Assembly (NCBI GenBank): GCA_039545355.1
Contig: BCJJ01000001.1
Span: 2,354,570-2,418,569, forward strand
Reading direction: 5' to 3'
Origin: Trichosporon coremiiforme
Taxonomy: Eukaryota > Basidiomycota > Tremellomycetes > Trichosporonales > Trichosporonaceae
Length of the DNA: 64,000 nucleotides
In this document: positions 37,596 through 58,659 of the stretch, in pieces
Layout of the letters: every line of letters starts with the position of its first letter
Position numbering within the stretch: position 1 is the stretch's first letter
Program-made: the position numbers and the translations under genes
The notes under the pieces: generated by a model
The model's database searches: none
What the model saw: the letters and a program-made list of their open reading frames with translations, nothing else
What the model was told of the DNA's origin: nothing

Positions 37596-37790
37596 GCCTC
37601 CAGAAGCGGCCCTCCGTAGCCTGCGCCACACATCACCACCTCCACAGGCAAAAGTGAAGAGCCATCAAGCAGTCAGCAGTAGTATATATCGCCATGCATG
37701 GACATCGACTGAGCTCTTCTTCTGTCACCCTCGGGAGCTTGGAGCTTGTACTCATCCAGCACCCGCTGCGACTACGTTCTCCAGTCTACT

Positions 37791-38530: not shown

Positions 38531-40653
38531 TTACAGAACTCCGACCTTGTCCTCCTTCCTATCCTCGGCGACCCTGATGCGTGCCTCGACCCGTGGCTCA
38601 ACGCTGCCTCCACCGACATACGAGTGCTGCGACAGCGCACGATGCAGCATATTCTCCTCGAACGGCCGTGACCTCGAAGCACGGCTCATGGCGCGCTGCA
38701 GCGCTCCTGCGTCTTGCAACGGCCCCGCGTCGTCAGTCATCTCCGCCTTTGTCTCTGGGTCCGCGCTGGTCTTGCGGGAGACATTTGACATGGCGCGGTG
38801 CAGCATTGCCTCCTCGACGCCTACGGGGACTTCGTTCTCGAGCGTCGCGATGCCGCGCTCAGCGGCGAGTTTCGCCTCGCGTTCCGCCCAGAGGTCGTCG
38901 GCTTCGCGCCCGTGCTTCGTCAGGCGCCGGATGCGTCGGCCGTACAGCACGAGCAGGAAGGGGACGGGCACGAAGACGAGCGTGAGGCCCGCGACGAGCG
39001 TGCCGCCCCAGTTTATGCCGAGGGCGTCGTACATGTCGAGCGTGAAGAGGGGGAGCACACAGCCCGCAATGGAGCGAGTCACGGTGCCGCCGGCCAACAC
39101 ACTCGCCGCGTTCGGCAGGTACGCGTCGACGAGGTAGTTGTTCATGCCGAGGAAGGTGAGGACCATGGCTGCGCCATACGGGATCGTGGCGAGGATGCTG
39201 ATGATGAACGGGATTCGGACGGGGACGCACGTCCATGCGAAGATGATGAGACCGATGGGCATGAGGACGGCGCCGATGATGGCGGGCTTGAGACGGGCTT
39301 CCGGAGGCAACATGCCGTGTCTCTTCAGCAGGCGGGCATACCCAGGATTGCCCCAGAAGATGAGGTAGATGATGGCACTGTTGCTCCCGACCGCGAGGCC
39401 GAGGAAGCTCAGCGCTCCGACGCCTGGCGACCACCCCCGTGCGACCTGGAACACGAGCGGGAAGGACGTGAAGGCCATGTAGAGCGTGGCGCTGACGATA
39501 GCGAGGTACGTGCATAGTGTGGCGACTATTGGTTCCGTGAACAGGAGGATCCACGGCACCTTCATCTGGCTCACAACCAGTTCCCTTCGATTGAACTCGT
39601 GCAGCAAGTCGTGTTCAGACACGTACGTTTGTCCAGTGATGCGGCTGAGTGCGGCGGCCCTTTTGCGCAGGATTACGGGTGCGTAGGTCTCCGGGAGCCA
39701 GACGATATGCGGAATAGTCACCCCCAGGGCGAAGAAGGCTGCCGTCGCCGCTACCCACCTCCATCCGGCCGCTGCAGACACGAAACCGCCGATAACAGGT
39801 CCTATAACCGGCCCGAGCCATGGCATCGCCCCGAAGACGCCCATAGCTAGCCCGCGATCAGCTGCGGAGAACATGTCGGCGATGATTCCGCCGGCGTTCG
39901 TCATGGTGGAACAACCGAACATTCCTGCGAAAAACCGCAGCACCAACACTGCGGTAAGGCTAGGGGCTCCGCACACGGCAGCCTGGAAGGCAGTGAAGGG
40001 GATCAGCGTGATGATGTATGCTGGTCGCCGTCCCCAGATCTCGGATATCGGCGCCCAGAGGAAGGGACCGATGACGAACCCCGCGACCTGTTGTTAGTGC
40101 CGATCAGTGTTGTTTGACGTTACGCACGTAGATGCCCGTCACTGCTGTTAGCTCATGGAGTGCTTTGGGAGACTTACCGAGGATGTATAGTCTGTTGTCA
40201 TAGCCTGGGAAGTCGACCTTGATGCTACCGACCGCGGCCGAGAGGGTCGAACTTCCCATCGTCATGGCGAGGGTGCCGATCGCCGCTAGCCCGTCAGCTT
40301 TGTCTGGCAGTCTACTCACACATCATGGTGATCGCCCACTTGTACCCGAACTTGTAGTTGTGCGGGTTCTCGGCGTCTCCCTCCAGCCATGTCACGACGT
40401 ATGGGTCGCTCTCGGTGCCAGCACCGGCGTACGGATGATTGCGGATCGCATCCCAACTCGTCGCCTTTTTGCGCCACGGCCGTTCTGGGAACGGATTTCG
40501 TGCTGACTTCTTCTCTGTTGTTGTGCCAGCCTCAGACCCGACGACCGTGTTGCTCGTATTACTTGTGTTGCTCGCCATACTGTCGAAGCGCTGGGCGGGG
40601 AGGCGCTCGTCGCTGAGCTTCTCGATCTTCTCGTCGTCTCGTATTCCTCCCAT
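38531..40653 (-). CDS. DHA1-type MFS multidrug/metabolite exporter
   Basis: Exons 40320-40653, 40178-40285, 40128-40141 and 38531-40087 give 670 residues. Exon 3 is only 14 nt and introns are 34, 36 and 40 nt. The N-terminal WAITMMSAIGTLAMTMGSSTL and VGSIKVDF start the first helix pair. VAGFVIGPFLWAPISEIWGRRP is the DHA1 motif A region, and PWLGPVIGPVIGGF is the antiporter motif C (G-x-x-x-G-P-x-x-G-G). The C-terminal 170 residues are a cytosolic tail with repeated LHRAMS/LQRAMS/LHRALS motifs. Family members export drugs or metabolites; yeast Dtr1, the bisformyl-dityrosine exporter, is in this family. Its place at the edge of the isocyanide-synthase cluster makes product export an attractive inference. 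The start could lie at a further upstream ATG. Confidence 0.82.
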
Positions 40654-41781
40654 GACGTGTATGGGGTAACAGCAAGATGCATTCGGTTCTCTCAGCATGC
40701 AGTGTCCAGCAGCCGCAAAAGTTGGAGCCAGACCAGAACCTGCCCGCATCGGACGAAGCCGGGGTCCCCATGCGTCCGGCTACATCGGGGTTGGCCGACA
40801 AAGTGGGCCGCGCCAGCAACAATCAGCTTTCAACGAATGGCTGAGCCTTACTCAGCTGGAATTCGGCAGGGAACGAGGGAGGGCCCCAGCGTACCCAGGT
40901 GCAGCACCCTCCCAGCTGGGCCGTGTGATCGCACCAGGCCGAGGCGAGCCGGAAGCAGGACACATGACGGTTCCAAAGTCATACCCCAGCGCCCAAGCGC
41001 CGGCGGCGTCTGGCGTCAGCCGCCGCACCAGGCGCCCACAGGCGCCCAGTCGTGTGACTCGGGGCCCAACTGGGCGTCGATCTCGGTTGTTGACTCGAAC
41101 ACTGGGAACCGTCGTCATTGGCTGAACAGTGTGGTTTTTTCGGCACCAGCGCCAAGACTTTTTCGGCACGGGAAGCAGGAAAGAAGGGTCGCGGCAGGGG
41201 CCGCTGCTAGTTACTGGCCGCGGCCAGCTCCCCGGGCAAGGTAAATCCGGCCACCGGACTGTCATGGAAGGTATGTACCGAACCGACAGCTGAGAGGTGT
41301 GCTAATTCCTGTTATAAGCATGAGGTCAGTTCCCGTAGAAGCAAGCATGGAAGCATCGAGGTCGAAGGGGCGAAGCGTCGAAAAGTCACGCTGCCCTGGT
41401 GGGCGGTGGTGCCTGACGCCATGGCCGGACGCGGAGGAACGTTGAAAGGAACCACTAGTCTGCGGTGATGTGTGCGATTCCGTGGAACGCGCGCGACTTT
41501 AAAGCTTGACACATCGCTCTTATAACCTTGCCCTTCGGCGTGCTGACGATATGGACAAAAGGAAAGAGTGTGCCGTCCGTCGGCGCCAGTCCACCGCCGA
41601 GCGCCGAGGCCGACACGGTCCCGCTCAGTTCCGCATTCCGCACCTGACCCACCTGACGTAAGCGCTGACATTCGTGACCGAGCGGATCGACAAAGTTCCA
41701 CATCGCCGAACGTCGACGAACGCACTTAAACAGACAGCGTACTCGCTCATCCTCATCTCCCTCCATCCCAATCAACGCATC
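40654..41781. other. Divergent intergenic region
   Basis: Separates the divergent DHA1 exporter and the SRPBCC gene; expected to hold both promoters. No other gene recognised. Confidence 0.45.
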
Positions 41782-42321
41782 ATGGCGCCCGCATCGAACA
41801 CGAAGACGAACCCGAACGACATCGACTACACGACGGGCGGCTGGGCGAAGACGGTCATCGACCGCCCGCCGCAGCTCGTCTTCGACGTTCTCACCTGCGT
41901 CCCGAACTGGCCCAACATCAATAAGGGCGTCACGATCAGCGTGACCCCAAAGAACGCCAAGGTTGAGGTCGGCGCGCAGTTTACAGAGACGATCCAGGCC
42001 CCCGTCGAGGGCATGGGACAGTGGAGCAACACGTGGACGGTGCAGGAGCTCGTCGAGGGGAAGAAGTTCGTCATGACCGCCATGGACAACTTTGCTTCTA
42101 TCCCAATTCCCTCTCGCCTGACTTACACGTTCACGGCCGTCGAGGGCAGCAATGGCAGCAAGACAACCTTCTTCCGTTCCATCGACACGGCACCGACGGA
42201 GGAGTTCTGGCACAAGGCCACGCCACAGGAGAAGGAGGCGCTGTACCGGTTCCAGGGCAGCCAGGCCGAGATGGCCGCACACCTCAAGCAATACGTCGAG
42301 CACAACACGCCGGCGTCCTAG
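41782..42321 (+). CDS. SRPBCC (START-like, polyketide cyclase-type fold) protein
   Basis: An intronless frame of 179 residues. After a short polar leader, GGWAKTVIDRPPQLVFDVLTCVPNWPNIN has the helix-strand start typical of the SRPBCC fold. Then VEVGAQFTETIQAPVEGMGQWSNTWTVQEL and RLTYTFTAVEGSNGSKTTFFRSIDT follow as beta strands, and a C-terminal helix (EKEALYRFQGSQAEMAAHLKQYVEH) closes the cavity. Such proteins bind hydrophobic ligands or act as cyclases or dehydratases. Sitting between the exporter and the P450, it may handle an intermediate of the cluster. No catalytic residue can be named, and the fold call is by pattern only. Confidence 0.6.
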   Translation: MAPASNTKTNPNDIDYTTGGWAKTVIDRPPQLVFDVLTCVPNWPNINKGVTISVTPKNAKVEVGAQFTETIQAPVEGMGQWSNTWTVQELVEGKKFVMTAMDNFASIPIPSRLTYTFTAVEGSNGSKTTFFRSIDTAPTEEFWHKATPQEKEALYRFQGSQAEMAAHLKQYVEHNTPAS

Positions 42322-42554: not shown

Positions 42555-44065
42555 CTACGCCCTCTTCTCAAACTTCAGCTTCAGGTCGCGTGGCGCCATG
42601 AGTCCGCCGGGCGTCAGTTCCGTGCCCTGCTCCGAAATCAGCGACACCTCGTACGCCGCAAGGATAGCGCGGATGACGCGGTGCAGCGACGCCATTGCAA
42701 ACAGTTGGCCAGGACAAGTCCTCAGTCCGCCATGGAAGGTGGCGAACTCGCCCTCGCTGCGCCATTTGCGGAGGTTCACGTCCATATCCTCGATGCTCTC
42801 GCCCCAGCGCTGTGGCCTCCACTCTGCGTCAATGGCGCGGTGCAGGCCGAAAGCCGACCAGCCGACATACATACCCTCCCTCAGCGGCACGTCCAGCCCA
42901 GGGAGGGAGAGGACTGTGTAGTGCGCGACGCGGCGGTTGATCAGCTGCGGGATCGGCGGATATAGCCTCAGTGCCTCGAGAATGGTCGCCTGCAGGGTTG
43001 GGCTGGGGGAGATGTCGGCGCGGATACGCGCTTGCAGCTCGCGATCGTGCGAGAGGATCCAGAGCAGAGTCAGGAGGGCTTGCTGCGCGTTCTCGTGTCC
43101 GGCGATGAAGATAACTGACATTAGCTTAGCTGACAGCAGACTCACTCTTGACGTTGTCGATGTACTCCCTCTCGCTGAGGAGGCCGGAGAGGAAGGCCTC
43201 GTCGAGCTTCCGCTGAGCGTTGCGCGACTCGTTCTTCTCATCTGTTGGGAGACCGAGCTTGACCCGTGCTTCGCTGCCGGGGAGAGCCTTCAGGAGCTCG
43301 ACCTCGAGGTCGCCGATCAGATTGCGGGCCAGCGCACGACTGGGAAAGAGACGCGGGAAGCGGTCCAGAGCCGGCACAGACAGGAAGAGGGGATGGAAAA
43401 TGTGGCGCTTCACGAGGGCGTGGATCCTGTGAACGGCCGGTGGAGAGGGAAGGAACTGATGTCAGCTTGACCACATCAGGACTAACTTTGAGGTCACGGC
43501 CGAGGACACAGAGACTGACTGCCTCCATGGAGTAGCGCTGCACGAGGCCCATCACGCTGCCAGCGTGTCCGTCAAGCTCATCAACAAGACGCTCCGCTGC
43601 ACCTTCAAGCCCCTTCACGTCGACGTCGTCCTTGAGTGCGGGCCGGATGATCTGCGCGTACTTCCGCCACAGCGCACCCGTCTCGCTGATGATGTTTCCG
43701 CCAGTCAGCGCGCTAATGACAGCATCGGGGAGTTTGCGGTGGTTGCCTTGCTTCTGGTATGTCGTGCCTTCCTGGCTGAAGAGCTGCTTCATGCCCTGCG
43801 GACAGGCGATCAGGACGTTCCATTGTGAGCCGAAGTAGACTACGACTGCGCCGTGTTTCGCCATCAGCGGCTCGACGTAGCGCGCATACGTCTCGTCCTG
43901 GCCTGGTAGAGGGAGGTTGAGCCATAAGTGCAGGAGGGGGAGGAAAGCGACCCAGAGCGGGACGACGGGCAGGCCAGGGGCAAAGTTGCGCGGAGGCTGG
44001 AGGTACCAGTACGCCAGTAGCAGGGTGAGTGGGACCGTTGCCGCTGCAGTTAGGAGTAGCAGCAT
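42555..44065 (-). CDS. Cytochrome P450, CYP56/Dit2-like
   Basis: Exons 43487-44065, 43146-43455 and 42555-43114, joined by two 31-nt introns, give 482 residues. The N-terminus MLLLLTAAATVPLTLLLAYWY is a membrane anchor and PPRNFAPGLP a proline hinge. Diagnostic elements are the oxygen-binding helix IIFIAGHENAQQ, the ExxR motif EALRLYPPIP, and the haem loop FHGGLRTCPG with Cys430 as the iron ligand. The overall look and neighbourhood (isocyanide synthase 6 kb away) point to the Dit2/CYP56 type, which in yeast couples N-formyl-tyrosine to dityrosine. The 31-nt introns are close to the minimum for spliceosomal introns. The promoter contains the motif AAGTCTCCGAA at 44187-44197. Membership of the CYP56 family itself is inference. 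Confidence 0.85.
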
Positions 44066-44510
44066 GGTGTGCGCGGGAAGGGGTTAGCTCTGGAAGAGGA
44101 GAGTTGTGCATGACCACGGCCGAAAGATGGCTTGAAGAACACTGCTGGTGTGGACGGTCGGAGCGATAGCGCAGACTTTTTAGCAAAAGTCTCCGAACTG
44201 CATCCTTCCGAGATTCGAAGAAGTCATGCCGTGCCTCAGGCCCGAGATAAGCTCCGCACAGTCGGAAACGGGCTGAATGCGCTGCACGATGCATGCTGCG
44301 TTCGGCCGATGCACGTTCTGTCCGATTCGTTTCTCAGAGGCTAGCTTCCACGCCAAGCAGCCGCACTTCCATGAATAGACCCCATTCCGCGCTCTGCTGC
44401 TCATGCTGCCCAGCTGGCCCATGTGTTCTCCCAAGCTCCGCGGACAGGGGTGCGTGCCCAGGAACCTTGCCGTTGTTCCGAAACCCATGCATCACTATGA
44501 AATCTACCGG
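44066..44510. promoter_or_regulatory. P450 promoter with cluster motif
   Basis: The P450 promoter region. AAGTCTCCGAA at 44187-44197, about 125 nt upstream of the start, is the same motif seen in the promoters of the glycosyltransferase, the methyltransferase and the Atg22-like/ABC pair. Its CCG core is typical of Zn2Cys6 half-sites. Confidence 0.5.
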
Positions 44511-46499
44511 CTACTGAATGGTCGTCCGCTTCTCCTCGGCCTCGACCTCGATCTTGGCCTTCTCCTCTGCCGCCTCGACCTTCTCGCGCAGGATCTCGCT
44601 GTCCGTCTCGCTCTTGGTGCGCATGCGCACCTCCTTGTGCCGCTCGATGTCATTGTGCGCGCGGCCCAGGTTCATGTCCTTGATGAAGAGGGAGAGGATG
44701 AGGGCCACGCCCGTCGTGCAGATCGCAATGATCATCATGGGGCGATATGCCTCGGTGTAGGCGCGCACGACCATGTCGTGCGGCTGCTGCCGGCGGGCGA
44801 GTCGGACCGAGCCGAACACCTTGGAGCGCGCGCTATCGCTGAGTTCCGGGAGGTACTTCTCCAGGTTCTTGGGCACGTTCGTATTCCAAATGCTCGCGCT
44901 GATGCTGCCCGCGATAGAGCCGGCGAGCTGGGCAACCATGTGCAGGATCGACATGGCGCCGGCCATGTCCTTATGCGGCACGGAGGCGGGAGCAGCAACG
45001 GCAGTGGTGGTGATGATGAAGCCGGCGCCGCACGAGATCATGAGCTTGGCCATGACAAGCACGACATCCTTCTGGTTGTAAAGCGAGTAGTAGTTGAGGC
45101 CCTCTCCGATGAGGCGGATGACAAGGCCTGTCATCTGGATGTACCGGTATCGGTGGGTGAAGCGCATCAGGAGACCAGCGCACACAGCGAAGAAGCACAT
45201 GCCCATGTTGTGAATGTTGGAGAAGGTGCTGTAGTTGTATTCACTCCACGTCGGCTTGATGATGTAAATCCACGAGTTGTAGTAGGCCTCGTGCAGGCCG
45301 GTCGAGAAGAAGTGAAACGCGTCGACGGCAGTGCAAAGCAGGAAGGTCCGGTTCATCAGGCGAGCAGCCCAGATGGGGGACTTGGCGAAGAGCGTGTCCC
45401 AGATGATGAAGGCGATGAAAAGTACACCGCCGACCACATACATCGCGATGAGAGAGGGGTTGGCGTACCCGCCCTTGGCGAAGGTGGTGAGCGTCGGCGG
45501 GCAGAGGAGAAGGGCGAGGGCAAATCCGAAGAGGAGGAGACCGAAGCCGTCAAGGTCGCTCCAGAGGTCGAGGATGCGGCGCCACCACGCCTTCTTGGGC
45601 GGCGGCTCGATTCCCTCAAGAGCGTGGCGACGAGCGTAGGACGAGGAAGCGAGCGACAGGGCACCGAGCTTTTTGGCCCTTCGGTGGCCCCAGAACATGA
45701 CGAGGATGGACGGGGCGATGGCGACGGGAATAATGATGGTAAACATGCCGTAGCCCCATCGCCAAGTCTGTCCATCAATGGACGAGGTAACACGAATCCC
45801 ACTCGTGATCTTTGCTCCCAGGAAGCCGTTCATAATCCACGGCAGCGAGTAGCAGCCGAGCACGATACCACGCCACTGCAGCTGGGTCATGTCACAGATC
45901 AGGATGTGCATGATCTGGTAAATGCCCGTGCGACCAGCGGTGAAGAGGGCCTCTCCGGCTGCGACGGCAACGACCGTAGGCGCAGCAGCAACAACGACGT
46001 AGCCGAGCGTGAACAGCCCCGTCGCGACTGTGAGCGCAAGTGGGCGCGAGGCAAAGTCACAGATCTTGGAGAGGAACGGCAGCGCCACGGCGCTCATAAT
46101 GTTGTTGATGACGGCCATGAGGCCAACGACGGTGTGCTTTCCGAAAGACGACGTCGCGAAGGCACTATAGAACGACGTCGTAATCGTTGCAAGCGACCAG
46201 ACGTACGCGATGAGCGCGATCGACGTCCACAGCAGAACCAGCTTCCATCCTCTCGGAAACACAAGGTCTGGTTGTCAGTATGCCCATCAGCCGACGTGGG
46301 ACTTACACAGAGCCTCTATTTTCGTCACACCGATGTACTGCTGGAACGACCGTCTTGAGCTGTTCGACACTGTCCGCTCGAGCTTGGTATCCGACTCTGT
46401 CGACGGGCTTTCCGGGGCGAACTCGACATCGTCGACCTTTTCCGGGAGGACAGCAGACCCGGCGCCGACTTCTCTTCCGACTGACGTGACGGCGGACAT
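44511..46499 (-). CDS. Siderophore-type MFS transporter (SIT/ARN family)
   Basis: Exons 46307-46499 and 44511-46267 (39-nt intron) give 649 residues, the usual size for 14-helix siderophore transporters. Splicing creates KIEALYLVFPRGWKL, the conserved entry to helix 1. Later features are NNIMSAVALPFLSKICDF, AGRTGIYQIMHILICDMTQLQWRG, and in the last third the loop WNTNVPKNLEKYLPEL followed by a final helix. These match what I know of the ARN/Sit1 family. The expected role is proton-coupled uptake of ferric siderophores or a related metallophore. The shared upstream region carries two GATA-type sites, fitting iron control. Within the cluster it might instead re-import the cluster product. Confidence 0.82.
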
Positions 46500-47525
46500 G
46501 GTATGTGGTGGGTTGACTTTTGACTCTGGTCAGAAAAGGTTTTTTATGCAAACGGGTTGGACAGCCTTGGCTGTGGTCACGAGCTAACTCTGCATGGGTA
46601 GGCATGACAAACGGTTAAAACGGCACGGCGTCCCTTGACTCTGTCCTGTCCTGGCGCAAGACCCCGCTGGTGCCAAGCGCATGAGGGCGGTATCCGGGCC
46701 TTGCATCGGGGCCTGAGACACAGAAGAGAAAGACAAGCCAGCATACCTCAGGTCCGACGATGCATGGGAGAGAGAGGGAAGAAGGCTCAGGCCGAGAGGG
46801 GGGTCCCAACCGCGGCTCATGATTGGCCCGAGGGGTTTATCTGATAGACGGCGAGTTCCGTGTCGGCCGATATCTGATAATCCCAGGCACCGCACCCGGA
46901 GTCAACCCGCAGTCCTTGTTGCTCGCCGACATGCATGCGCCGCTCCTGCTGTCGCCCTCGGCGAGCAAAGTCCAGGGTGCACGGCGCCCGTCGCGGCGAA
47001 TGCAATCCACATGCAAGCGCACGGTCGCGTAAGACAAGAAGAACGGCCAACTTGGCCGAATGTGCTGTCGAAAACGGTGCCAAGAACTGTCGGCCGGGGC
47101 GGGCTTGGCGTCTTTTCAGAGGTGACTCAAAAAGGCGTTGTCACAGGACGGCCATGGTCCAGGTTCCCGCCAGACCTGTCATCTCCTTACACACAGCAAT
47201 GTCACCATGCCCGGTCAAGGAGAGCCTCTAGCGCCACGCCTTGGCGCGAAGAGACCGCATCCCCTGGGACTGTCTGGGCAGCCGGGGCTGACTATGGGAA
47301 TAGTCCTCGGGAACATCCTTGGGACCTGGCTGCTTGTCCCTACAGTCGTACGCGAGAAACTCTGAGCCAACCGACGAGCAGACAAATCAGCGCTCAGACC
47401 CGCCCCGGAACGCCGGGACGGTACGCGCCGGCGCTTGGCCGGTGCATTTATCAGATAACTCGTCCCGCTCACACTTTTTCTTCTTTCTTTCTCTCCATCT
47501 CATCTCTTCGCAAAACATTACCGCA
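46500..47525. promoter_or_regulatory. Divergent promoter region with GATA-type iron sites
   Basis: Separates the divergent siderophore-type transporter and eight-cysteine secreted gene. ATCTGATAA at 46872-46880 and ATCAGATAA at 47450-47458 match the ATCWGATAA consensus of SreA/Fep1-type iron-responsive repressors exactly; ATCTGATAG at 46839-46847 is a near match. The 47450 site is only 68 nt upstream of the secreted gene. No additional gene recognised. Confidence 0.5.
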
Positions 47526-48298: not shown

Positions 48299-48721
48299 GT
48301 TCTTGGGTGTCTGTAGCTCTTAATGAATAACGAATAATGCGTGCGAATCGAGTTGCAGAGATGACAAGATGGGCATTCCGCAACTTGGATCGTGGCTGAC
48401 AGCATCTGGAGACATGGAGCCACCCCCACTCCATTGGATGGCCGGGCCGCGGGCCGGAAAGTCTGCGAGTTGCTCTCGGGTGGTCTCGAACGGCAGACTC
48501 AAGGGCCGCGGTCAATTCCTCGGCGTCAGGGACGTCGGCCCAGGCACAACCCCTGCAAGCTGGCGTCGTATACCGAACGACGAGTGACTCGATGCGACGA
48601 AATCCGACATGTCGGCTCTCTGGTGCACGGGACAGGAGAGGCTTCAGCTTCGGGATGAGTCAACTTGCATGGCTCGGACCTAGAGTCACAGTTTTGTCTG
48701 ATAGGTGCGTTATCTGATACG
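48299..48721. other. Convergent intergenic region
   Basis: Holds the 3' ends of the GPI-type gene and the glycosyltransferase. No gene recognised. Confidence 0.4.
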
Positions 48722-49983
48722 CTACTTGAAGGTAGTCTCGATCCACTCGTCCCAGTTCGCCTGGCTCTGCCCCTGGGCCGCCTTCACCTTCTCGGCCAGA
48801 CGCTCAGCGTTCTCCGTCTCCTTCGCCCATCCCCCCTTGGCCCAATCCTTGATACCTTCCGGTCCGCCCTTCCGCCCTGTGCCGTATTTCTCCTCAACGA
48901 CACGCGCGTTTAGCCACTGTTCAGCGTGCGCAGGCTTGAGGAGCATGGGCACGCCGCCAGCGACAGCTTCGAGGACGCTGTTCCAGCCGCCATGGTTGTA
49001 GAACAATCCTATGGCGGGATGCTGCAGAGCCGCAGCCTGGGGGAGCCAGCGCCGAGTAATGCCGTTGGGCAGGGGGTCGACTTCGGCGCTCATGATCCAG
49101 ATGAAGGGCACGCCAGTGTCCATCAGAACCGAGTGGATCTGCTCCATGAGCGCGTCGTCGCGCACGCTCAGAGTGCCGAAGGCGATGTACACGACCGACC
49201 TGGGCTGATGGCCGTCGAGAAACGACGCAATGTCGTCCGGCAACTCGGTGGGTGAGTGCAGGAACAAGGGGCCGATGGGGGATCCGAGCTCGGAATCGCT
49301 GAGCTCGTCTAGACCCGGGATCGCATTGGCGAGCATGGCGCCGCTATCCTTCACGAGTAGAGCGAAGCCGCTCGCGAGCCAAACTGTAGGACCGGAAGGC
49401 GTGATGCCCTTCTCGCCAAAGACGGCGATGACGTCCTCGGCCCCGACGTGCATGTATCCCTTCACGTCCAGGCCGTCGGTGCACAGCTGCTCGTCGGGAT
49501 CCTTGCCTACTGCAGCAGCAGCGACGCGCAGAGTAACCGCCGCACCGATGGGGGACACGTCGACGAGGGTCGTCCAGTGCATGCCCAGCTTTTTTGCAAT
49601 GGGCGGGCCGAAGAAGATGAACGGCGACGCGATGACGGCACTCGCACCCTCGGACGCCAGACGTTCAAGCTCGGCGGAGGCGGGACCGATCATCTGCTGG
49701 TACAGCGGCATGACGGCGTGGGGACCCTTGGCGTAGTCCTCGTACGTGACACCGGTGGAGGGCAGGGGGATGAAGGTCAGGTCAGGGTGTGAGATGACCG
49801 GCGCGCGCTTGAGAAAGACGTCGGAGGCGAGGAAGGTCGCCTTGATGCCGGACTGGGCGGCCCAGTGAGCCAGGTGTAGGAGGGGAATGACGTGCCCCAT
49901 GCCTGGAGCGGCGACAAAGACTGGTGGTGTCAGCGGAGTCCCGGGGTGTGCTCACCTGCATGCTTGAGCTTGTCCTGTGTCAT
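48722..49983 (-). CDS. UDP-glycosyltransferase
   Basis: Exons 49956-49983 (28 nt) and 48722-49920 give 408 residues; the 35-nt intron restores AVFVAAPGMGHVIPLLHLA, the N-terminal GT1 motif. The C-terminal half has SVVYIAFGTLSV, RRWLPQAAALQHPAIGLFYNHGGWNSVLEAVAGG (beginning of the UGT signature) and VPMLLKPAHAEQWLNAR, i.e. the nucleotide-sugar site with its HGGWNS and E-Q residues. This is a GT-B fold enzyme that transfers sugar from UDP-sugar to a small acceptor. It is shorter than many GT1 enzymes (~450-500). The promoter has two overlapping copies of TCGGAGACTT at 50065-50083. Its position next to the isocyanide synthase suggests glycosylation of the cluster product. Confidence 0.85.
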
Positions 49984-50064
49984 GGCGGTGTTCGTGGGTG
50001 GCTTGGTGAGTATTGAGGCTCTGTGTTTTATGGTATGGGCCGGAGGGCTGTGTGCTCGGGTGGC

Positions 50065-50083
50065 TCGGAGACTTCGGAGACTT
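50065..50083 (-). promoter_or_regulatory. Tandem copies of the shared cluster promoter motif
   Basis: TCGGAGACTT occurs at 50065-50074 and again at 50074-50083, 82-100 nt upstream of the glycosyltransferase start codon. The complement AAGTCTCCGA is found in the other cluster promoters. Confidence 0.5.
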
Positions 50084-50234
50084 TATACTTTCGTGACATT
50101 CACAGAGGCTACTGAAGACTACCAACGTCCGAATCGTTTTCGCACCGCCACGAGAGATTCGAAGGGCACTTGGTGTGTGAAGTATGCACATCGGAAAGAA
50201 ATCTTACAACGTCGTGGGGGTGTGGAGAGGATGA

Positions 50235-51483
50235 CTACAACACGAGACGGAAGTATGCGCCCTCTCCCCTCTCGGTGGGGCGGACGAAGCGTACCTGGTG
50301 CTCGGTCGTCTCGAGGTTGCGCAGCATGTACCGCTTTAGCATGACGTAGCCGCCTTTGGGGAGCTGGAGCACTACGTTGTGCCAGGGAGTTGGGATGTGG
50401 AACAGTTGCGCCTCGACGGGGGCGCCGAGTCCGGAGCGGAACGAGGGGTGCACGAGCGAGATGGGGAACTTGGGACCGGCGTTGTCGTGCCTGGCTGTCA
50501 GCGGTGATATGATGGGTGTGGTGGACTCACGGATGGATGCTGAGACGCACAGCGGTGGGGAAGCAGATTTCGACGAGACGCGAGTACGCTTCGTTGCGAA
50601 GGATCATGAGCTTGGCGGTCGACCAGGCGACACGCTTGCGCTTGCTTTGGCTCATCGCCTTCATTGAAGGATGCTGCAGCGTGTCCTCAAAGACGAAGCG
50701 GCTGAAGCCGCGGCACAGTCCGAGCAGTGCTTTATCGTTTGCAAGGCGCTCGTCGATGGTGGCCGGAGGCTGGCCGTACAGCTCGAGCAGGGTGGCGCGG
50801 GCGGCGTCGGCTTCAGCAGTGTGCTTCGTGGCCATGGGTCCTGTGGTCGGAGTGTTGCCAGGCGGTGCGTCGGGTATATGCGCAATGAGCTCGTCGAGAC
50901 CGGCAAACAGGACACGAGCGTCGATGCCGGCAGCCATGTCCTTCAGAGCGGCGTTGTACTCGTCGACAGCGCAGTCGTCGGTGCCGACGAGATCCGAGAA
51001 GACGTGGCCGTCTGAGACGACGCGCACAAGAACGCCGGGGGAGTAGAAGGAGGCGACATCGTCGGAGAAGAGCTTGAGGGTGCGCAGGGCGAGCTCCTCG
51101 CCCTTGTCGGGAAGGGCGCCGGAGACCTTGTTGAGGTTGCTCGACTTGCAAGGGAAGGCGGGCAGGACAAACTCGACTGCCTTGCCTGCCGTCACGAAGG
51201 CAGCCGTGGTCTTGGTGAATGCGGCACGGCCCTCGGTGGCCCAGCGGCAGCCCTCGGGGGTGAACTTGAGATGGCGCTCGTAGGCGTCGACGATGGAGGC
51301 GGTCAGGCGCTCGGTGAGGGCTTCGGTAACCTTGGAAGCGGCGGCGGGAGAGATGAGACTGTCTGTGGAGACATTGGCGGGAACACTAAGGGTGGGGAGA
51401 GAGGGGCGCCGGAGCCCGAGGATCGAGTCCATGGAACGACGGATGTCGGGATCGACGTCGACGGCCGCGGGGGTTCTCAACAT
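50235..51483 (-). CDS. Isocyanide synthase-like protein (Dit1/PvcA family)
   Basis: Exons 50531-51483 and 50235-50490 (40-nt intron) give 402 residues. The central block FVLPAFPCKSSNLNKVSG, then LPDKGEELALRTL, VLVRVVSDGHVFSDLVGTDD and VDEYNAALKDM is the pattern I know from the Dit1/PvcA family. Its members condense an aromatic or other amino acid amine with a sugar-phosphate carbon to make an isocyanide or N-formyl product. The C-terminal part with FPISLVHPSF and TPWHNVVLQL continues the family. In yeast Dit1 starts dityrosine synthesis; in moulds similar enzymes make xanthocillin-type or fatty isocyanides, some of which bind copper. The start at 51483 is the first ATG; the frame opens slightly earlier without one. 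A partial motif match (TGTCCGAA) lies ~275 nt upstream. Confidence 0.8.
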
Positions 51484-51976
51484 GGTGATCGCAAGAAGAG
51501 GGTGGGAGTTCAAGTCAAAGGCTCGCCATTGCGTCCTTTTAGTAGCCTGAGCTCGAAGCGAGTGGCAATGAGGCTGACGGTCTGCCCATGACTGACGGAA
51601 TGGTGGCGGTGCGGAGCGACATTGCCACCTCGCGCTAAAACTCGCCGCGAATCACAAAGTCACCGAACACGCACCGTCTGTGATCGGCGGTCTCGTCAGC
51701 CCGTCAAATTTCGGCGCGTCATCTCCGTACACCGCCTCCGTGCACGGGCATGTGAGGCTGTCCGAACGTATACATGGCGGCCGCTCTAGGCGTACACAAC
51801 TCCCTCCGCGCTTCGTCCGTAGCAAGTCACAACAATAGCCAACAGGGGTGTGGGAGGCGAACGCTCAGCCCTGACTCGAGGATCGCAGACAGACTCATAC
51901 CATGATGCTCATCGCGGCTAATGTCCCTCCACACTTGTCACGCTTTCAACAGTGCATGGCACTAGATAAAAACATT
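51484..51976. promoter_or_regulatory. Isocyanide synthase promoter region
   Basis: The 493-nt stretch before the isocyanide synthase start. CTGTCCGAA at 51758-51766 matches only the core of the cluster motif, so this gene may be driven by a weaker or different site. No extra gene recognised. Confidence 0.35.
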
Positions 51977-52901
51977 CTACTGAGGCTTCTGACCGACGGC
52001 GGTGTGGAAGTTGTGGAACCCCTCGATGCCATCGCAGTCCGCCATAACCTTGCGGCCCCACTCCACGACCTCCTCGGCAGTCATGTCCCAGCTCTGTGCA
52101 AGAACAGGCGCGAGAGTGGTGATGAGCGCCTGGTAGTCGGCATTCATGTGAGCGCCAACAGGTCCGACCTTGGAGTTCATCGGCGCCGACTTGGCTTTGT
52201 TGTCGATGTTGGTAAGCCCAGCAGCGGCCATGAAATCGTGCAACTTCGGGCCGGCGTTAGGCTCGCCGCCGCGCTTCTCGAGGGAGCCGCGCATGCCGCG
52301 CTTGTTCCAGTCGGCGATGGCATCGGTGATGCCCCGCTCGGAGCGGAGCGTGCCGTCAGGCTCGACCATCTGGACCCAGCCTCCGGGACGAGTGATGCGC
52401 GCGAGCTCCTTGGCGGCCACGGGCCATTCGGCAACCTTGAGCGCGCCAGTGAAGAAGCGCATGTGCACGAGGTCGAAGGTGTTGTCCTCGAAGGGTAAAC
52501 CCTTGAGAATGTCGCCGTGCACGAACTTGACGTCGGCGTCTGAGGGCTTGAACGTGTCGGCGAAGTCGGTGGCGTACGCCTCCACCTCGGGGTGCTCGGT
52601 CTTGACTTGCTTGATCCAGGAGCCCGGGCCGCAGCCGACGTCGAGCACCTTGGTGCCCTTCTTGAACTCAATGGGAGCGGAGACGGTGCCGCCGAAGAGA
52701 AGGCCGATGAGACGGTGCTGGGCTTCGAGACGGTCGAACTCCTGGCCATCGGCGGGAAGGGCGTAGATGCTCTGGGTGTCAGGGATGTTGCTGGGAAGGG
52801 CGGCAACTCACCTCAAACTTTGAGTGGTACTGGCGCGACTCGGTGCCCGGAACGAGCCTGAGACCGGTAGCGATGTTTCCGTCAGCAGCGGGGAGAACCA
52901 T
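51977..52901 (-). CDS. SAM-dependent class I methyltransferase
   Basis: Exons 52812-52901 and 51977-52771 (40-nt intron) give 294 residues. Motif I is VLDVGCGPGSW, an exact glycine-rich SAM-binding loop. The acidic end of strand 2 is YATDFAD, motif II/III lies around FVHGDILKGLPFEDNTFDLVHMRFF, and the post-motif is ITRPGGWVQMVEPDG. The substrate is unknown; small-molecule methylation is likely, given that it lies between the isocyanide synthase and two transporters on the same strand. A regulatory methyltransferase of LaeA type is an alternative. Its promoter holds the richest set of the shared motif (53029-53114). Confidence 0.83.
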
Positions 52902-53028
52902 GATGCTAGAGTTGGAGTGCTGGGTGTTCGAGGATCATGAAGTGGTCAGCGCCGTTGTGAATGCAGCCCCCGATGCTTTAAACGGCTGGTGACTCAGGGT
53001 CTCGGTGACTTGATAGCGACTCGGAATC

Positions 53029-53114
53029 TCGGAGACTTCTTCCGGAGCCTTTTCACAAGTCTCCGAATCTGCTTCTCGCTCTGCAACTGCACCGGAGCGT
53101 TCACAAGTGTCCGA
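53029..53114 (-). promoter_or_regulatory. Cluster motif array in the methyltransferase promoter
   Basis: TCGGAGACTT at 53029-53038, AAGTCTCCGA at 53057-53066 and AAGTGTCCGA at 53105-53114 occur within 90 nt, the first two as an inverted pair. A near copy, CTCGGTGACTT, begins at 53001. They lie ~130-215 nt upstream of the methyltransferase start. Confidence 0.55.
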
Positions 53115-53166
53115 GAGATGCATGCAGCGCGACTACGGCACGATAGAGATGCGGAGGTATGGACAT

Positions 53167-54882
53167 TCAGTCGCAGGCGTCGGGGTGTCGCTCGGCTTCG
53201 GCGACTTCCTCGCGCCGGATGACCGCGACGCCCTCCTTGTCGTTAACCAGCCAGACGAGCGAAAACGAAATAATGAAGAAGACGAGCGAGATGACCGCGG
53301 GGAGGCGCACGTTGTTGGTTGCCGAGACAATCGGAGCGTTGGCAATCTGCGGGATCCACGTCGTACCGCACGACAGCACGAGCTGGAAGCCGAAATACTG
53401 GATCTCGTTGCCGCGCGGGAACATCTCAGAGAACAGCACGCGGAACAGCGGCGAGATGATCGAGCCAGCCAGGTTCATGATGACCTGGAACACATAGAAC
53501 TCTGCACGGTGCTTGTATCCAACCTTGGACGACGGGCTCATGCCGAGACAGCACCAGAACGTTGTGAAGATGGTGAGGCTGTATGCGATCAGTGCCCACT
53601 GGCGGAGCGACAAGCGCGAATACGGGAAGATGTACATGAAGATGAGCGAGCCGACGATTGAGGTTGCGGTGCCGGTGATTGAGTATGCGGTGTACTCGGT
53701 CATGCTTGGTCGCGCATTGAGGTTGAACAGTGTGCCGATGACCGAGCCGTAGGCGAAGTGCGAGTCATTGTAGATGACGTAGCTGATCAGGAAGAGCATC
53801 GCGTTGCGGTACCTGCTGAGACCGTGCCAAAGCTCGATGAACGTCCGGATCGGCAGCATCCAGAAACTGCCATTGTAGGGCTTGCTGCCTGGCGAGGGGA
53901 GGAAGCGCCAACCGAGAAGCGCACAGATGATGCAGATGCCCCCAGCAGCAGTCGACATGTACATGCCGGCATTGCGTGCGGCGGTGGCTCCAGCGTACGA
54001 GATACCGATGGTGATGCAGTAGAAGATGACTGTCGCCACGTTCATGGAGACACCACCCCAGACGGACATTTTAAGACCCTCCCTCTCGCGCTTGGCCCTG
54101 AGTGCCTCACCCTCGACGTCGTCGGTCTTGGCTAAGGCGTCGACCTTGGCCTGAGTGCTGAGCTCGTCGATGGGTGCAGCCGCATACATGGTGTATGGGA
54201 TAAAAATGTTCATCCACGCCATGGCGAGATAGCCGGTGATGCTGAAGATGGTGTACAAGGCGATGAGGGCGGTGTAGTTGGCGTATGTGTAGGCGGTGAG
54301 GCCTGCTGCCGGGAGACAGAGAGCGCCGTACAGCACGAGCATGAAAATGTACTGCTCTCGCTTGTAGGCTGCCGTCAGCAATGTGTTAACCTGGTAGCTC
54401 ACAGAAGTGGTCGCCCCAGCCCGAAATGAGGAGGGTAAGCACGCCGCTGACGCCGTAGGCGATGGCGTTGAGATACAGCAGGAGACTGGTGAGGTTGAGG
54501 TCACCCTTGCCGAACGGAACGCGGCACGGAGCACCCTTGTCAGGACAGCCGGAGCCCTTCGGTTGACCGGGGTGGTGGCCGACTGCCATGAAGGCGATGG
54601 TCTGGATTTGGAACGAGACATAGACAATGTGGGCGCCGAAGGCGGGGCCGATCTATGGTCAGCGGTGCCGAAATGCATGCTCACTCCGAAGGTAGTGACG
54701 GCGTAGGCGAGGTTGTATCGCTTGAGCAGCTTCTGGGGCACTGGCTTGTGGTGCGGTTCAATCGGCTCGATGAGTTGGGCGTCTTTAGTGTCCGACTCGT
54801 TCGGCACAGCCTTGGCGAGAGACGAGGTGCTCTCGTAGGACGGGTGCTGGGCAAGGACGGGGGCGTCTTCGACTGGGGCCAT
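53167..54882 (-). CDS. Atg22-like MFS transporter
   Basis: Exons 54685-54882, 54403-54652 and 53167-54368, with introns of 32 and 34 nt, give 549 residues. About twelve hydrophobic segments are visible. The middle block KPYNGSFWMLPIRTFIELWH, then NAMLFLISYVIYNDSHFAYG resembles the Atg22 family, whose yeast member exports amino acids from the vacuole. A loop with four cysteines or prolines (GSGCPDKGAPCRVPFG) is unusual. The start at 54882 has a good context (ACAATGG); an upstream in-frame ATG at 54921 would add 13 residues. It is divergent from the ABC transporter with a 161-nt shared promoter, which suggests co-expression. A role in moving an amino-acid-derived product or precursor is inferred. 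Confidence 0.68.
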   Translation of the reverse strand: MAPVEDAPVLAQHPSYESTSSLAKAVPNESDTKDAQLIEPIEPHHKPVPQKLLKRYNLAYAVTTFGVSMHFGTADHRSAPPSAPTLSMSRSKSRPSPSWQSATTPVNRRAPAVLTRVLRAAFRSARVTSTSPVSCCISTPSPTASAACLPSSFRAGATTSVSYQVNTLLTAAYKREQYIFMLVLYGALCLPAAGLTAYTYANYTALIALYTIFSITGYLAMAWMNIFIPYTMYAAAPIDELSTQAKVDALAKTDDVEGEALRAKREREGLKMSVWGGVSMNVATVIFYCITIGISYAGATAARNAGMYMSTAAGGICIICALLGWRFLPSPGSKPYNGSFWMLPIRTFIELWHGLSRYRNAMLFLISYVIYNDSHFAYGSVIGTLFNLNARPSMTEYTAYSITGTATSIVGSLIFMYIFPYSRLSLRQWALIAYSLTIFTTFWCCLGMSPSSKVGYKHRAEFYVFQVIMNLAGSIISPLFRVLFSEMFPRGNEIQYFGFQLVLSCGTTWIPQIANAPIVSATNNVRLPAVISLVFFIISFSLVWLVNDKEGVAVIRREEVAEAERHPDACD

Positions 54883-55043
54883 TGTGGGTTGTTTCGGGGG
54901 TTGCTTGGGAGAGAACAGCATGCATGGTCACTCTTATGTGCTCCGAGAGGGGCCTCGGAGACATTGTCAAAAGTGTCCGAAGGTGATTGCGTTAAAACAA
55001 CTGGCACATACCACGTCCTGCCCGCGCTAACCCTACCCACATA
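54883..55043. promoter_or_regulatory. Compact bidirectional promoter (Atg22-like / ABC)
   Basis: Only 161 nt separate the two divergent starts. TCGGAGACAT at 54955-54964 (one mismatch) and AAGTGTCCGA at 54971-54980 are copies of the shared cluster motif lying near the midpoint, so one site could drive both transporters. Confidence 0.6.
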
Positions 55044-58000
55044 ATGGCTCTCTCCCAGGTCCGCCTCCTCTTGCGACAGACGACCGTCAGCGAGCGGTTG
55101 CTGCTCATCGTCGGACTGGTGGCGTGCATGGGCGCCGGCGCGGTGCAACCGTTGATGAACTTGCCGTTCGGCGCCGTCGTCAACGATGTTGTTGATTTCG
55201 CCACGGGAGCAAACGACGCCCAGCGACGGACCAACAACAACGTCGTCATCTTCTGCTACCTCGCCGTTGGATCATTCGTCACCACCTTCGTCTACACCAC
55301 CCTCTTCAACTGGGCAGGCGAGAGCATTACCAACCGCCTCCGTGGCAAAGCTATCCGCAGCCTTCTGTCCCAGGAACTCGCTTATTATCAAGATGGAACA
55401 GCTACAACTCGTGCGACCGAACTGCAGAAGGACCTCGACACGATCCAGTCGGGGATCAGCGAGAAGCTCTCAAACAACATCATGTATCTCTCGCTTGCCC
55501 TGACTGGCTTCATCATTGCACTTGTGAAGGCTTGGAACCTCGGTCTCGCGCTCCTGTCGATGTTGCCGTGTCTTCTTATCATCGGCTTTTTCGTGAGTAG
55601 CACCGGCGTCCAACCCTGACGATCAGTTGACCAAATACGGTTTCGCATACATCGGCAAGTTCATGATGGCACTCGGTCCCATCAGCAGCCTGACGCAAGA
55701 GTCGCTCGCAGGCATTGCGACGATTCGCAGTCTCGGCGCCGAAGCGAACCTCGTCGAGAAAGTGCGAGTCATTCAGCACTCGGCACTACGTACGGCACGC
55801 AGGAAGGCGATCATCTGGGGTCTCTGCATGGCTGGCATCACATTCGTCATCTACGCCGGCTACGCCCTCTGTTTTGCCTACGGTGGCCAGCTTTTACGGT
55901 CCGGTGACCTCGCACCCGGCACGCTTATCACGGTCTTCCTCTGCATCATGATGGGCAGCTTCTCATTCGGCCAGGTCCCGCCGAACCTGCACGCCTTCAT
56001 GTCGGCTCTCTCCGCAACGACCAAGCTGCAGGAGATCGTTGAGCGCAAGCCGGAGATCACATCTCCGCCGAACGCTGTCACCCTTCCTGCCCTTCAACAC
56101 GGCATTGAGATTCGCAACGTTTCCTTCGCCTATCCAGCTCGACCCGATGTCCCCGTTCTACGCGACGTCAGCATCACCGTCAACGCCGGAGAGACGCTCG
56201 CAATCGTTGGTCACAGTGGCTCCGGCAAGTCAACCCTGGTCGCCCTGCTGCTCTCGCTTTACCGCGTAGACGACATCTTCTACGACAGCGTCAATGTGAA
56301 GGACATGGATCTGCACAACTTGCGCGGCGACCTCATCGCCTCCGTTCTGCAGGAGCCCCAGCTCTTCGATGTCTCGATCTTCGACAATGTCGCGCTCGGT
56401 CTGCCGACCAGCGCTCGTGGCCTGACCAGAACGAAGCAGCTCGCACTTGTGACTGAGGCATGCCGCATCGCCCAGGCCCACGACTTCATCACCGCCTTGC
56501 CCAATGGGTACAACACCACAGCCGGTGATGGTGGTGCCAAGTTGAGCGGTGGCCAGAAAGCTCGTATTGCCATCGCCCGTGCTCTGGTGCGGCGTGCACC
56601 CGTCCTGCTACTCGACGAAGCGACGGCGAACCTGGACACAGTTTGCGAACGAGCTCTCCATGCTGCGCTAGAAACGACATCTGTAGGTCGCACGACCGTG
56701 GTGATCGCCCACCGCCTGAGCACTGTCCGCAAGGCAGACCGCATTGTCGTCATGCATGACGGTGTTATTGTCGCCGAAGGAACCCATCAGTCTCTGCTGG
56801 AAAACGACCACTACCGTTCCCTGTTTCACGCTGAAGAGACCAACTCCGATGCCTCGACGCTCATGAACGAGTCAACCAGCTCTTTAGCCCTTCCGAAGAA
56901 GGAGCTTGAGGCTGTCGACACTGTCCCGGCAGCCGAAGCTCGTGACGGACCCAAGACATGGAGGAGCATCAGGCTGATGGCCCCTTACGGCAATGGAACC
57001 CTCATCCTCGTCGGTGTTGCGGGCAGCATTGTCGCTGGAGCCCTCTACCCAGTCTTCGCTATCATCTACGCCCTAGCCTACAGCACGTTCAGCACGCACC
57101 CTAAGGACGCGCATCTGCAGAACATGAATGCCCTCTACTTCTTCATCTGCGCCATCGGCGGCGCCGTCAGCATCTTCCTGCAATGGTTCTGCCTCGGGTA
57201 TGCTTCCGACCGCCTCGCGTGCGCGCTTCAAGGTGCCATGCTTCGCCGCGTCCTGCGCGCACCCATGGCCTTCTTCGATGAGCCTCGCAACTCGTCGTCT
57301 CAGCTCGCCGACGTCGTCAACAACTCGCCCAACCGTGTTGCAACGTTCTGCGGAACTGCCATGGGCACCTTCATCGCCTCGCTCAGCACTCTGATCGGCG
57401 GCTGCATCGTCGGCTTAGTCTACAGCTGGAAGCTCGGTCTCGTCAACATGGCCGTCCTTCCGCTGACACTCGGCACGGGCATCGTGCGCTTGAAGGTGCT
57501 CGACTCGCGCGAGGCCAAGTTCAAGAAAGCCCATGAGCCTGCGAATCGCGTTGCCGTCGCCGCCGTCACCAACCTCGAGACTGTCGCGTCGCTCGCGGCC
57601 GAGGACATCGTGTACGACGACTACATGAGCAAGCTGAACACGAAGGGGAATAGTATCCTCGGCTGCGCTCTGTTCGGTCTCGCCCAGAGCAACATGTACT
57701 TTGTCATCGCGCTCGGTTTCTGGTACGGCAGCAAGCTGGTGTTCTCGGGCGAGATCAGCTCGCGCGCTTTCTTCGCCACCTTCACTGCCATCGTCGCTGG
57801 GAGCTTCCAGGCTGTCAACGTCCTGACCCAGGCGCCCGAGCTCGGCCAGGCGCGTGGCGCCACCATCGACATCGGACGCCTTCTAAGCCTCCCCGAGGAA
57901 CACCTCAGCGGTGACCACCCCGTTCCTGCAGGTGACATCCGACTCGACGGCGTCTCGTTCAACTACCCCTCTCGGGACGATCCGAGCCTGCGAGACCTCT

Positions 58001-58659
58001 CTCTCCTCGCCCAGCACAACGGCTTCACGGCTCTCGCGGGTCCGAGCGGCAGCGGCAAGTCGACGGTGGTCCGTCTTCTCGAGCGGTTCTACGAGCCCTC
58101 ATCGGGCAGCATCACGCTCGGCGGCGTGCCACTCACCGCGATCGACGAGACAGCGTACCGTCGCTCGGTCGCGCTCGTGACACAGGAGCCCGTGCTCTTC
58201 AACATGACGATTCGCGAGAACCTCCTACTCGGCTCCAACGGCCAGGCGGATGAGGATCTGACGCGCGTACTGAACGTCGTGAACCTGTCCGAATTCGTCG
58301 GCACGCTTTCCGATGGACTCGGTACCAACCTCGGCGCCAAGGGCATAGCGCTGAGCGGCGGGCAGCGGCAGCGCCTGGTCATTGCGCGCGCGCTGCTGCG
58401 TAACCCTTCCATTCTGCTCCTGGACGAGGCGACTTCGTCCCTCGACAACGTGAACCAGCGCGCGGTGCAGACTGCCCTCGACGTGATGGCGAAGGATGCG
58501 CATCTCACCGTCATCGCCGTCGCGCACCGCCTCAGCACCATACGTGACGCTGGGACTATCTACGTGCTCCGTGCAGGCCACGTTGAGGAGCAGGGCACGT
58601 ACGACGAGCTCATCGCGAACCGCGGGCTGTTTGCGAGCCTCGCTGCGAATGTGGAGTAG
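55044..58659 (+). CDS. Full-size ABC-B (MDR/Ste6-like) transporter
   Basis: Exons 55044-55592 and 55627-58659 (34-nt intron) give 1193 residues in the order TMD1-NBD1-TMD2-NBD2. NBD1 has Walker A GHSGSGKST near residue 380, signature LSGGQKARIAIARAL and Walker B VLLLDEATANLD. NBD2 has GPSGSGKST near residue 990, LSGGQRQRLVIARALL, ILLLDEATSSLD and the H-loop AVAHRLST. All catalytic elements are present in both halves. The N-terminus is short, so the protein is at the lower end of the family's usual ~1200-1400 residues. Members export lipophilic drugs, peptides or pheromones. Paired with the Atg22-like gene and carrying the cluster motif, it probably exports or detoxifies the cluster product. 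Confidence 0.9.

Follow-up and report, generated by a model that had tools for sequence, protein, structure and literature searches.

What does a Dit1-type gene cluster produce in a basidiomycete, when genes for glycosylation, methylation and, probably, iron uptake lie within it? This question is raised by positions 38531-58659 of a 64,000-nucleotide stretch (the window) of contig BCJJ01000001.1 (C1) of Trichosporon coremiiforme, whose genome comprises 42.0 Mb in 134 contigs. Ten genes with spliced models can be placed there, with introns of ~30-50 bases in nine of them and a single exon in the gene for an SRPBCC protein. The first-pass annotation, made from the sequence alone, had proposed an isocyanide cluster with a dityrosine-like or metallophore product. 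The gene types it named are real and lie where it had put them, all of them being backed by a Pfam scan (PF05141, p450, UDPGT, S-adenosylmethionine (SAM) methyltransferases, AHSA1, MFS_1 twice, ATG22 and ABC transporter). One gene had been overlooked, the tenth, which encodes a secreted Cys-rich protein of the glycosylphosphatidylinositol (GPI) type (47526-48298, plus strand). In our reading, to which we give a probability of roughly 0.6, a (di)tyrosine product carrying a sugar, a methyl group or both is made and exported by the cluster, and the iron-related gene pair inside it is a separate module.

The synthase (isocyanide synthase family, ICS) and the P450 are encoded as follows:

51483-50531 and 50490-50235, minus strand: Dit1-type PF05141 synthase (ICS), 402 amino acids (PF05141 at 217 bits, Dit1 hits, tree)
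44065-43487, 43455-43146 and 43114-42555, minus strand: CYP56/Dit2-like cytochrome P450 (Pfam p450 in two open frames, homologs, tree)

The PF05141 profile search of 50235-51483 was positive (217.4 bits, cut-off 26.4). As a profile search of the whole genome revealed only one other PF05141 locus, on contig C25, the match is more than chance. The solved PvcA structure 3e59 aligns to residues 93-318 of the synthase (E 5.6e-26), and the stretches LPAFP.KS.N, PD..E, SDG.VF.DL and RLSIHP are common to both proteins. A 21-row alignment including the window synthase has 50 invariant columns. The homology search found 449 proteins, of which the best 120 were listed; among these are Dit1-named proteins of ascomycetes and Selaginella, proteins of chytrids, and those of the basidiomycetes Vanrija, Violaceomyces, Tilletiaria and Tilletia. 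The nearest named synthase among the listed matches is that of Vanrija albida (55% identity), Vanrija being a basidiomycete of the Trichosporonales.

The synthase tree has 61 rows: 47 of the 120 listed proteins, the two T. coremiiforme copies and 12 bacterial sequences as root (12 of 80 loci kept, from 98 confirmed). The 49 eukaryotic rows are split from the 12 bacterial ones with a support of 100/99. Eight rows labelled Trichosporonales, i.e., the two own copies, Vanrija and five others (P0001 and P0003-P0006, labelled from similarity only), form one group (100/99), which is joined by four Ustilaginomycotina, themselves not one clade, in a larger group (98/92). This basidiomycete group stands beside the ascomycete one (100/98) with a joining node of 90/86, and chytrids with Selaginella lie outside both. 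The synthase, judged by its sequence, thus groups with fungal Dit1. As the synthase tree roughly follows the species tree, old vertical descent with many losses is the simplest explanation of this distribution. Note that the xan/crm synthases are absent from the tree; that the window protein is not of this type rests on hit names and domain make-up. Four Dit1-like proteins of the lycophyte Selaginella moellendorffii (P0009, P0010, P0012, P0021) fall together with six from chytrids (95/91) in a group whose inner branching order the tree does not settle; a transfer from a chytrid-like fungus is suggested by this grouping.

For the P450, bit scores drop from 174 to 73 after 13 of the 33 hits (one of these 13 is the window's own fragment). 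The top matches include proteins named P450-DIT2 of two Vanrija species and of Tilletia horrida, as well as CYP56F1; the Vanrija P450s thus already carry the DIT2 name in public records. In a tree of 21 of the 33 listed proteins and the two own copies, from which single-exon fragments were excluded and in which other fungal P450 families are scarcely sampled, the window P450 falls within a CYP56/Dit2-like group of 11 rows (100/100), as its comparison with CYP56 was expected to reveal if the early assignment held. This tree is not an exact copy of the synthase tree, because the ascomycete Ascobolus sits with the basidiomycetes (94/81). The dit1 and dit2 genes are co-located, 6.2 kb apart and both on the minus strand, with a transporter gene of the SIT type, the GPI-type gene and a glycosyltransferase gene between them.

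The first-pass name of the cluster fares less well than its gene content. In yeast, Dit1 was not replaced by PvcA; its product is most likely formyl-tyrosine, and according to the same report the enzyme is no isocyanide synthase (PMC7345447); others have proposed an isocyanide intermediate (PMC5974471, PMC10153163). The Dit1-type synthase, the CYP56-type P450, the glycosyltransferase and the methyltransferase stand, but the word "isocyanide" is weakened by the grouping of the synthase with Dit1, whose yeast member is reported to lack this activity (PMC7345447). It is a doubtful label, and "Dit1-type cluster" is the better name.

Four further genes complete the putative pathway:

49983-49956 and 49920-48722, minus strand: GT1-type UDP-glycosyltransferase (UGT; Pfam UDPGT, 66.9 bits)
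52901-52812 and 52771-51977, minus strand: SAM-dependent methyltransferase (Pfam Methyltransf_25/11/23)
53167-54921, minus strand: ATG22-like transporter of the major facilitator superfamily (MFS), three exons (Pfam ATG22, 177.6 bits)
55044-55592 and 55627-58659, plus strand: full-size ABCB-type ATP-binding cassette (ABC) transporter (Pfam ABC_membrane and ABC_tran)

The best PDB matches of the UGT include cyanohydrin and flavonoid glucosyltransferases. Its gene was found in two copies in the genome, one per homeologous block, and in a tree made by a quick method (22 of 80 listed proteins plus the two own) the own UGT clade is isolated. The second-exon frame of the ABCB gene has two stretches each of ABC_membrane and ABC_tran. 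For the ATG22-like gene, a start at 54882 is more likely than at 54921, because the first ATG is missing in C25.

The following route appears plausible for these enzymes. The Dit1-type synthase, going by its family, would convert tyrosine to N-formyl- or isocyano-tyrosine, and the CYP56-type P450 would couple two such units or oxidize one. The UGT may add a sugar to the phenol, and the methyltransferase may cap an O, N or carboxyl group. Export or storage of the product would be the task of the ABCB and ATG22-like transporters. The genes for the P450, UGT, synthase, methyltransferase and both transporters would be switched together via TCGGAGACTT-type sites, and the SIT and Cys-rich GPI-type genes would form a pair of their own that responds to iron starvation through ATCWGATAA boxes.

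The proposed co-regulation derives from a motif found by aligning promoters between the window and C25 copies. TCGGAGACTT or close variants occur at 10 sites upstream of the P450, UGT, synthase, methyltransferase and ATG22-like/ABCB genes:

44187-44196, minus strand: TCGGAGACTT, P450 promoter, identical in C25
50065-50083, plus strand: tandem TCGGAGACTT (two copies), UGT promoter, identical in C25
51657-51666, minus strand: variant TCGGTGACTT, ICS promoter, nine of ten bases kept in C25
53002-53114: four sites (53002 plus, 53029 plus, 53057 minus, 53105 minus), methyltransferase promoter, two exact and two variants
54955-54980, no strand assigned: variants TCGGAGACAT and TCGGACACTT, ATG22-like/ABCB divergent promoter, identical in C25

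All five exact copies of TCGGAGACTT in the window lie in core promoters. If one mismatch is allowed, there are 16 matches in the window (4.49 expected), 10 of them in core promoters, and none of 1000 dinucleotide shuffles of the five promoters gave any 10-mer with five copies. Across the ten sites 98 of 100 bases are kept in C25, the background being 11.7% of promoter 10-mers fully kept. The inverted pair TCGGAGACTT..AAGTCTCCGA within 30 bases occurs genome-wide only at the two methyltransferase promoters (window and C25). A weight matrix made from the ten sites gives no equally high score anywhere else in the window, a circular result, as the same sites built the matrix; in C25, eight of 11 matches lie in the corresponding promoters. 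A scan with this matrix revealed no motif in the DHA1/SRPBCC and SIT/GPI promoters (four genes). Copper, Ndt80, CCAAT and AP-1-type motifs gave nothing consistent across the core promoters. The six motif-bearing genes thus appear to be co-regulated through TCGGAGACTT-type sites, and, judged on promoter motifs, the core of the cluster is 42555-58659. Elsewhere in the genome, two small contigs each hold two inverted copies of TCGGAGACTT at a distance of 625 bases (C38:19407-20041 and C58:19551-20185), probably as repeat ends.

Scattering of the genes in relatives, which the first-pass annotation had named as a finding that would speak against a cluster, was not observed: two or three of ICS, P450 and UGT are linked on each of four other contigs. 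Taking matches on equally long contigs as lying on the same contig, we found ICS and UGT together on contigs of 15930, 4179 and 16689, the first of which carries the P450 as well, and P450 and UGT also on a contig of 40517. The UGTs on the linked contigs are 47-78% identical to that of the window. In V. albida, the synthase and the P450 are likewise on contigs of equal length (3975977). ICS, P450 and UGT are together in both T. coremiiforme blocks.

The second block, on C25, is collinear with that of the window. Blastn aligns 38520-58691 to it almost throughout, with 79-85% identity, short gaps and one interruption by a 1.76 kb stretch present in C25 only; 36768-37628 matches at 75%. Mean protein identity between the two copies is 89.9% over nine genes, e.g., 94.8% for DHA1 and 88.9% for SRPBCC, and nine of the ten C25 genes have no internal stop. 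Note that the boundaries transferred to C25 are partly off (the acceptor of DHA1 intron 2 and the stops of the P450 and ABCB genes) and that the GPI-type gene requires a different acceptor there. Ratios of non-synonymous to synonymous substitution rates (dN/dS) were obtained for nine genes, with the GPI-type gene left out and the ATG22-like gene represented by the part before the insert described below. They are 0.062 for DHA1, 0.106 for SRPBCC, 0.198 for the P450, 0.052 for SIT, 0.120 for the UGT, 0.119 for the synthase, 0.066 for the methyltransferase, 0.074 for the ATG22-like and 0.061 for the ABCB transporter. As all nine values fall within 0.052-0.198, both lineages are under purifying selection. 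A hybrid Trichosporonaceae genome fits best as the source of the two blocks; if the genome is hybrid, most of the purifying selection would predate the hybrid. Hybrid genomes of this family have a mean size of 40.5 Mb, with a family range to 42.4 Mb (PMC7026411), and a parental protein divergence of 7% was given for T. coremiiforme and of 17% for T. ovoides (PMC6642101).

Several observations weigh against a co-regulated dit cluster with a tailored product. The divergent orientation of dit1 and dit2 typical of Saccharomycotina is not found here. Genome-wide, TCGGAGACTT has 110 copies, hardly above the 85 of the reversed control (10 of the 110 lie inside the two clusters). Six of the 16 one-mismatch matches in the window and three of the 11 matrix matches in C25 lie outside core promoters, the C25 ICS promoter holds a weaker variant of the motif only, and, besides the circularity of the matrix, C25 is a homolog, so that its sites do not count as independent evidence. 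On C25, the ATG22-like gene (C25:51701-54661, homeolog of 53167-54368) is broken by an insert of 1760 bases. Furthermore, since no Vanrija-named protein is among the 80 hits of the word-limited UGT search, the UGT may have been added to the dit pair later. The insert itself is bounded by inverted repeats of its ends and has long frames in two phases; a DDE_3 transposase match lies in one of these frames.

The iron-related pair is located between the P450 and UGT genes in both blocks:

46499-46307 and 46267-44511, minus strand: SIT/ARN-like MFS transporter (Pfam MFS_1, 35 bits; iron-type boxes)
47526-47562 and 47610-48298, plus strand: Cys-rich secreted GPI-type protein (spliced frame; no Pfam match)
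46837-46880, no strand assigned: two ATCWGATAA iron-type GATA boxes, SIT/GPI divergent promoter, identical in C25
47448-47458, no strand assigned: double ATCWGATAA box forming a palindrome, at the GPI end of this promoter, identical in C25

The transporter is probably of the SIT/ARN (siderophore-type) family, Pfam giving MFS_1 only; the iron-type boxes at its gene and at most of the paralogs examined agree with this assignment, and its next paralog is 24% identical. The Cys-rich protein has an 8-Cys domain, a Ser/Ala-rich stalk and a GPI-type tail (the tail by inspection), and its gene was found in two copies in the genome, with Cys domains 97% identical. A single-sequence fold model of this domain was too poor for use (mean predicted local distance difference test score, pLDDT, of 54). 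The promoter shared by the two genes has four ATCWGATAA boxes, all identical in C25. In the window there are eight such boxes (0.31 expected), the others being at 6222, 32632, 42347 and 48710, and genome-wide 466, compared with 76 for the reversed pattern. Those at 48710 and 42347 are at 3' ends of cluster genes, and the 48710 box is also present in C25. Among 27 SIT matches, two of which are the cluster copies, upstream DNA was taken for 11 loci, some of them seemingly homeolog pairs and thus not independent; nine of these 11 have at least one box, and the 15 boxes counted in 18.7 kb amount to a density ~70 times that of the genome, distances being counted from the matched frame and not from a modelled start. 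ATCWGATAA corresponds to the SreA-type iron element and fits Ustilago maydis sid1 (PMC2610380).

No ATCWGATAA box is present in any of the five core promoters in either copy. As the SIT/GPI promoter holds the boxes and the core promoters hold the motif, the pair is very likely, from the promoter sequences, part of the iron regulon, with the biosynthetic genes under a different control. The SIT and GPI-type genes probably represent a siderophore-uptake module, as known from ARN/FIT of yeast. Fungal SIT/ARN and FIT uptake also combines a SIT-type transporter with a GPI-type wall protein and iron-type GATA boxes; in contrast to it, the window pair sits inside a biosynthetic cluster, and its GPI-type protein matches no Pfam family.

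Could the cluster nevertheless serve metal capture? Its product would then be a glycosylated, methylated chelator derived from tyrosine, isocyanide- or catechol-like, which would be exported, bind iron (or copper), be held at the wall by the GPI-type protein and be taken up again via SIT, with a separate iron regulator for the uptake genes. The position of the pair between P450 and UGT in both blocks and its conserved iron-type boxes speak for this. However, the core promoters are free of these boxes, the SIT/GPI promoter is free of the cluster motif, and Dit1, with which the synthase groups, is not known for metal products. As the biosynthetic promoters lack iron-type boxes, the metallophore reading is weaker than first assumed, and we regard it as unlikely. 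A PF13434 (ornithine monooxygenase) search for a hydroxamate siderophore pathway gave 11 partial matches over a loose cut-off and no strong hit (best 34.7 bits), as a cluster with its own chelator would have it; this says little, for want of a positive control from fungi and because the family also matches in 12 of the 14 prokaryotes used as controls. If metal capture were true, one locus would join the ancient dityrosine pathway to siderophore uptake.

It is quite unlikely that, as in ascomycete yeasts, the cluster just supplies an undecorated dityrosine-type monomer to the walls of arthroconidia or hyphae, with the UGT and methyltransferase acting on something else. The kinship to Dit1 and CYP56 and the transporters nearby are in line with such a wall monomer, but the UGT and methyltransferase promoters hold six of the ten motif sites, and the UGT is linked to ICS or P450 on the four other contigs. 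A tyrosine-derived wall constituent that is not dityrosine is described for the basidiomycete Cryptococcus neoformans (PMC7712904), which neither supports nor excludes a role of the cluster in the wall.

A xanthocillin-like pathway, i.e., a true vinyl/aryl isocyanide dimer with antibiotic or copper chemistry, is very unlikely. PF05141, the similarity to PvcA and the fact that XanG is a Dit2 homologue (PMC5974471) would fit it; the monodomain synthase groups with Dit1 (in a tree without xan/crm), yeast Dit1 is not replaced by PvcA (PMC7345447), and no further synthase was found in the genome, whose two PF05141 loci lie on separate contigs. That the genes are chance neighbours, kept together by the general collinearity of the subgenomes, is highly improbable: the blocks are collinear beyond the cluster too and the genes lie on both strands, but six genes share a promoter motif, linkage recurs on other contigs with UGTs 47-78% identical, and the block is kept while its flanks at 30.6-36.8 and 58.7-62.0 kb, like 37629-38519, find no match within the 60 kb of C25 that served for comparison.

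Known systems help to place the tailored dit cluster that we favour. Like the DIT1/DIT2 locus of Saccharomyces cerevisiae and Candida albicans, it has the genes of a monodomain PF05141 synthase and a CYP56/Dit2-type P450 at a single locus. In the yeasts, the two genes are divergent (PMC5974471), whereas those of the window share the minus strand and are separated by three others, and a UGT, a methyltransferase and other transporters are added. Clans 1-3 of the dit superfamily, as described in a 2023 survey (PMC10153163), share with it the co-location of dit1 and dit2 and promoter motifs common to neighbouring genes, but belong to Ascomycota and have a different orientation. The Aspergillus fumigatus xan cluster has a synthase, a Dit2-like P450 (XanG) and a methylation step (XanE) as well; its synthase, however, has a dioxygenase as second domain and its products respond to copper (PMC5974471), whereas that of the window is monodomain and its promoter motif different. 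The 2023 survey reports a dit cluster in no basidiomycete, although other isocyanide-synthase clusters are present there (PMC10153163), and proteins of the isocyanide synthase family were noted in four basidiomycete species (PMC5974471). Our literature search, in which subscription journals were mostly not covered, found no paper that describes a dit cluster of a basidiomycete in its title or the opening of its abstract. Since the survey found none (PMC10153163), the window cluster would be a new, tailored dit variant.

New are the different order of the dit genes, the tailoring and the two interleaved promoter codes. The dit cluster, described as an ascomycete trait, is present here in a basidiomycete, and the tree suggests its origin before the split of both groups. 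From the tailoring genes, a glycosylated product is to be expected; to our knowledge, none is known from the dit pathway. With the two promoter codes, genes for the metabolite can be told apart from the probable iron-uptake pair in a manner open to testing, and the Trichosporonales include human opportunistic pathogens.

Two genes at the left edge may not belong to the functional cluster; they lie inside the conserved block, yet without the cluster motif:

40653-40320, 40285-40178, 40144-40128 and 40087-38531, minus strand: DHA1-type MFS transporter (MFS_1, 119.7 bits; start codon uncertain)
41782-42321, plus strand, divergent from DHA1: SRPBCC (AHSA1-like) protein, one exon (AHSA1 25.3 bits, cut-off 22.1)

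The DHA1 model, with four exons reaching about 40653, is longer than first read. Four transporters had been predicted, and two MFS_1, one ATG22 and one ABC protein are indeed encoded, but the assignment of DHA1 to the Dtr1 family is tentative at best: among structure matches, Quinidine resistance protein 2 (E 1.7e-5) ranks below three antiseptic/multidrug resistance entries. Dtr1 is similar to Qdr3 and Qdr1 (PMC3744438). The SRPBCC protein scores 25.4 bits against Polyketide_cyc2, under the cut-off of 27.4, and its single-sequence fold model was too poor for use (mean pLDDT 39.7). NCBIfam gave no match for the ATG22-like, SRPBCC and Cys-rich proteins and one far below the cut-off for SIT; an Rfam scan of 38-60 kb gave no match over gathering scores.

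Because a Zn-cluster-like stretch at 35947-36351 has no Pfam match, we claim no in-cluster regulator. At least 12 kb outside the cluster, a Fungal_trans transcription factor-like frame (24128-26056, Pfam 26.9 bits) and its neighbour without Pfam match (20946-22511) are 94-96% identical in C25, with nothing that ties them to the cluster. Apparently secreted proteins without Pfam match are encoded on both sides of it, one at 59102-60007, in a stretch without counterpart in the compared C25 region, and a small one at 36945-37595, 84% identical in C25, at the left edge of the conserved block.

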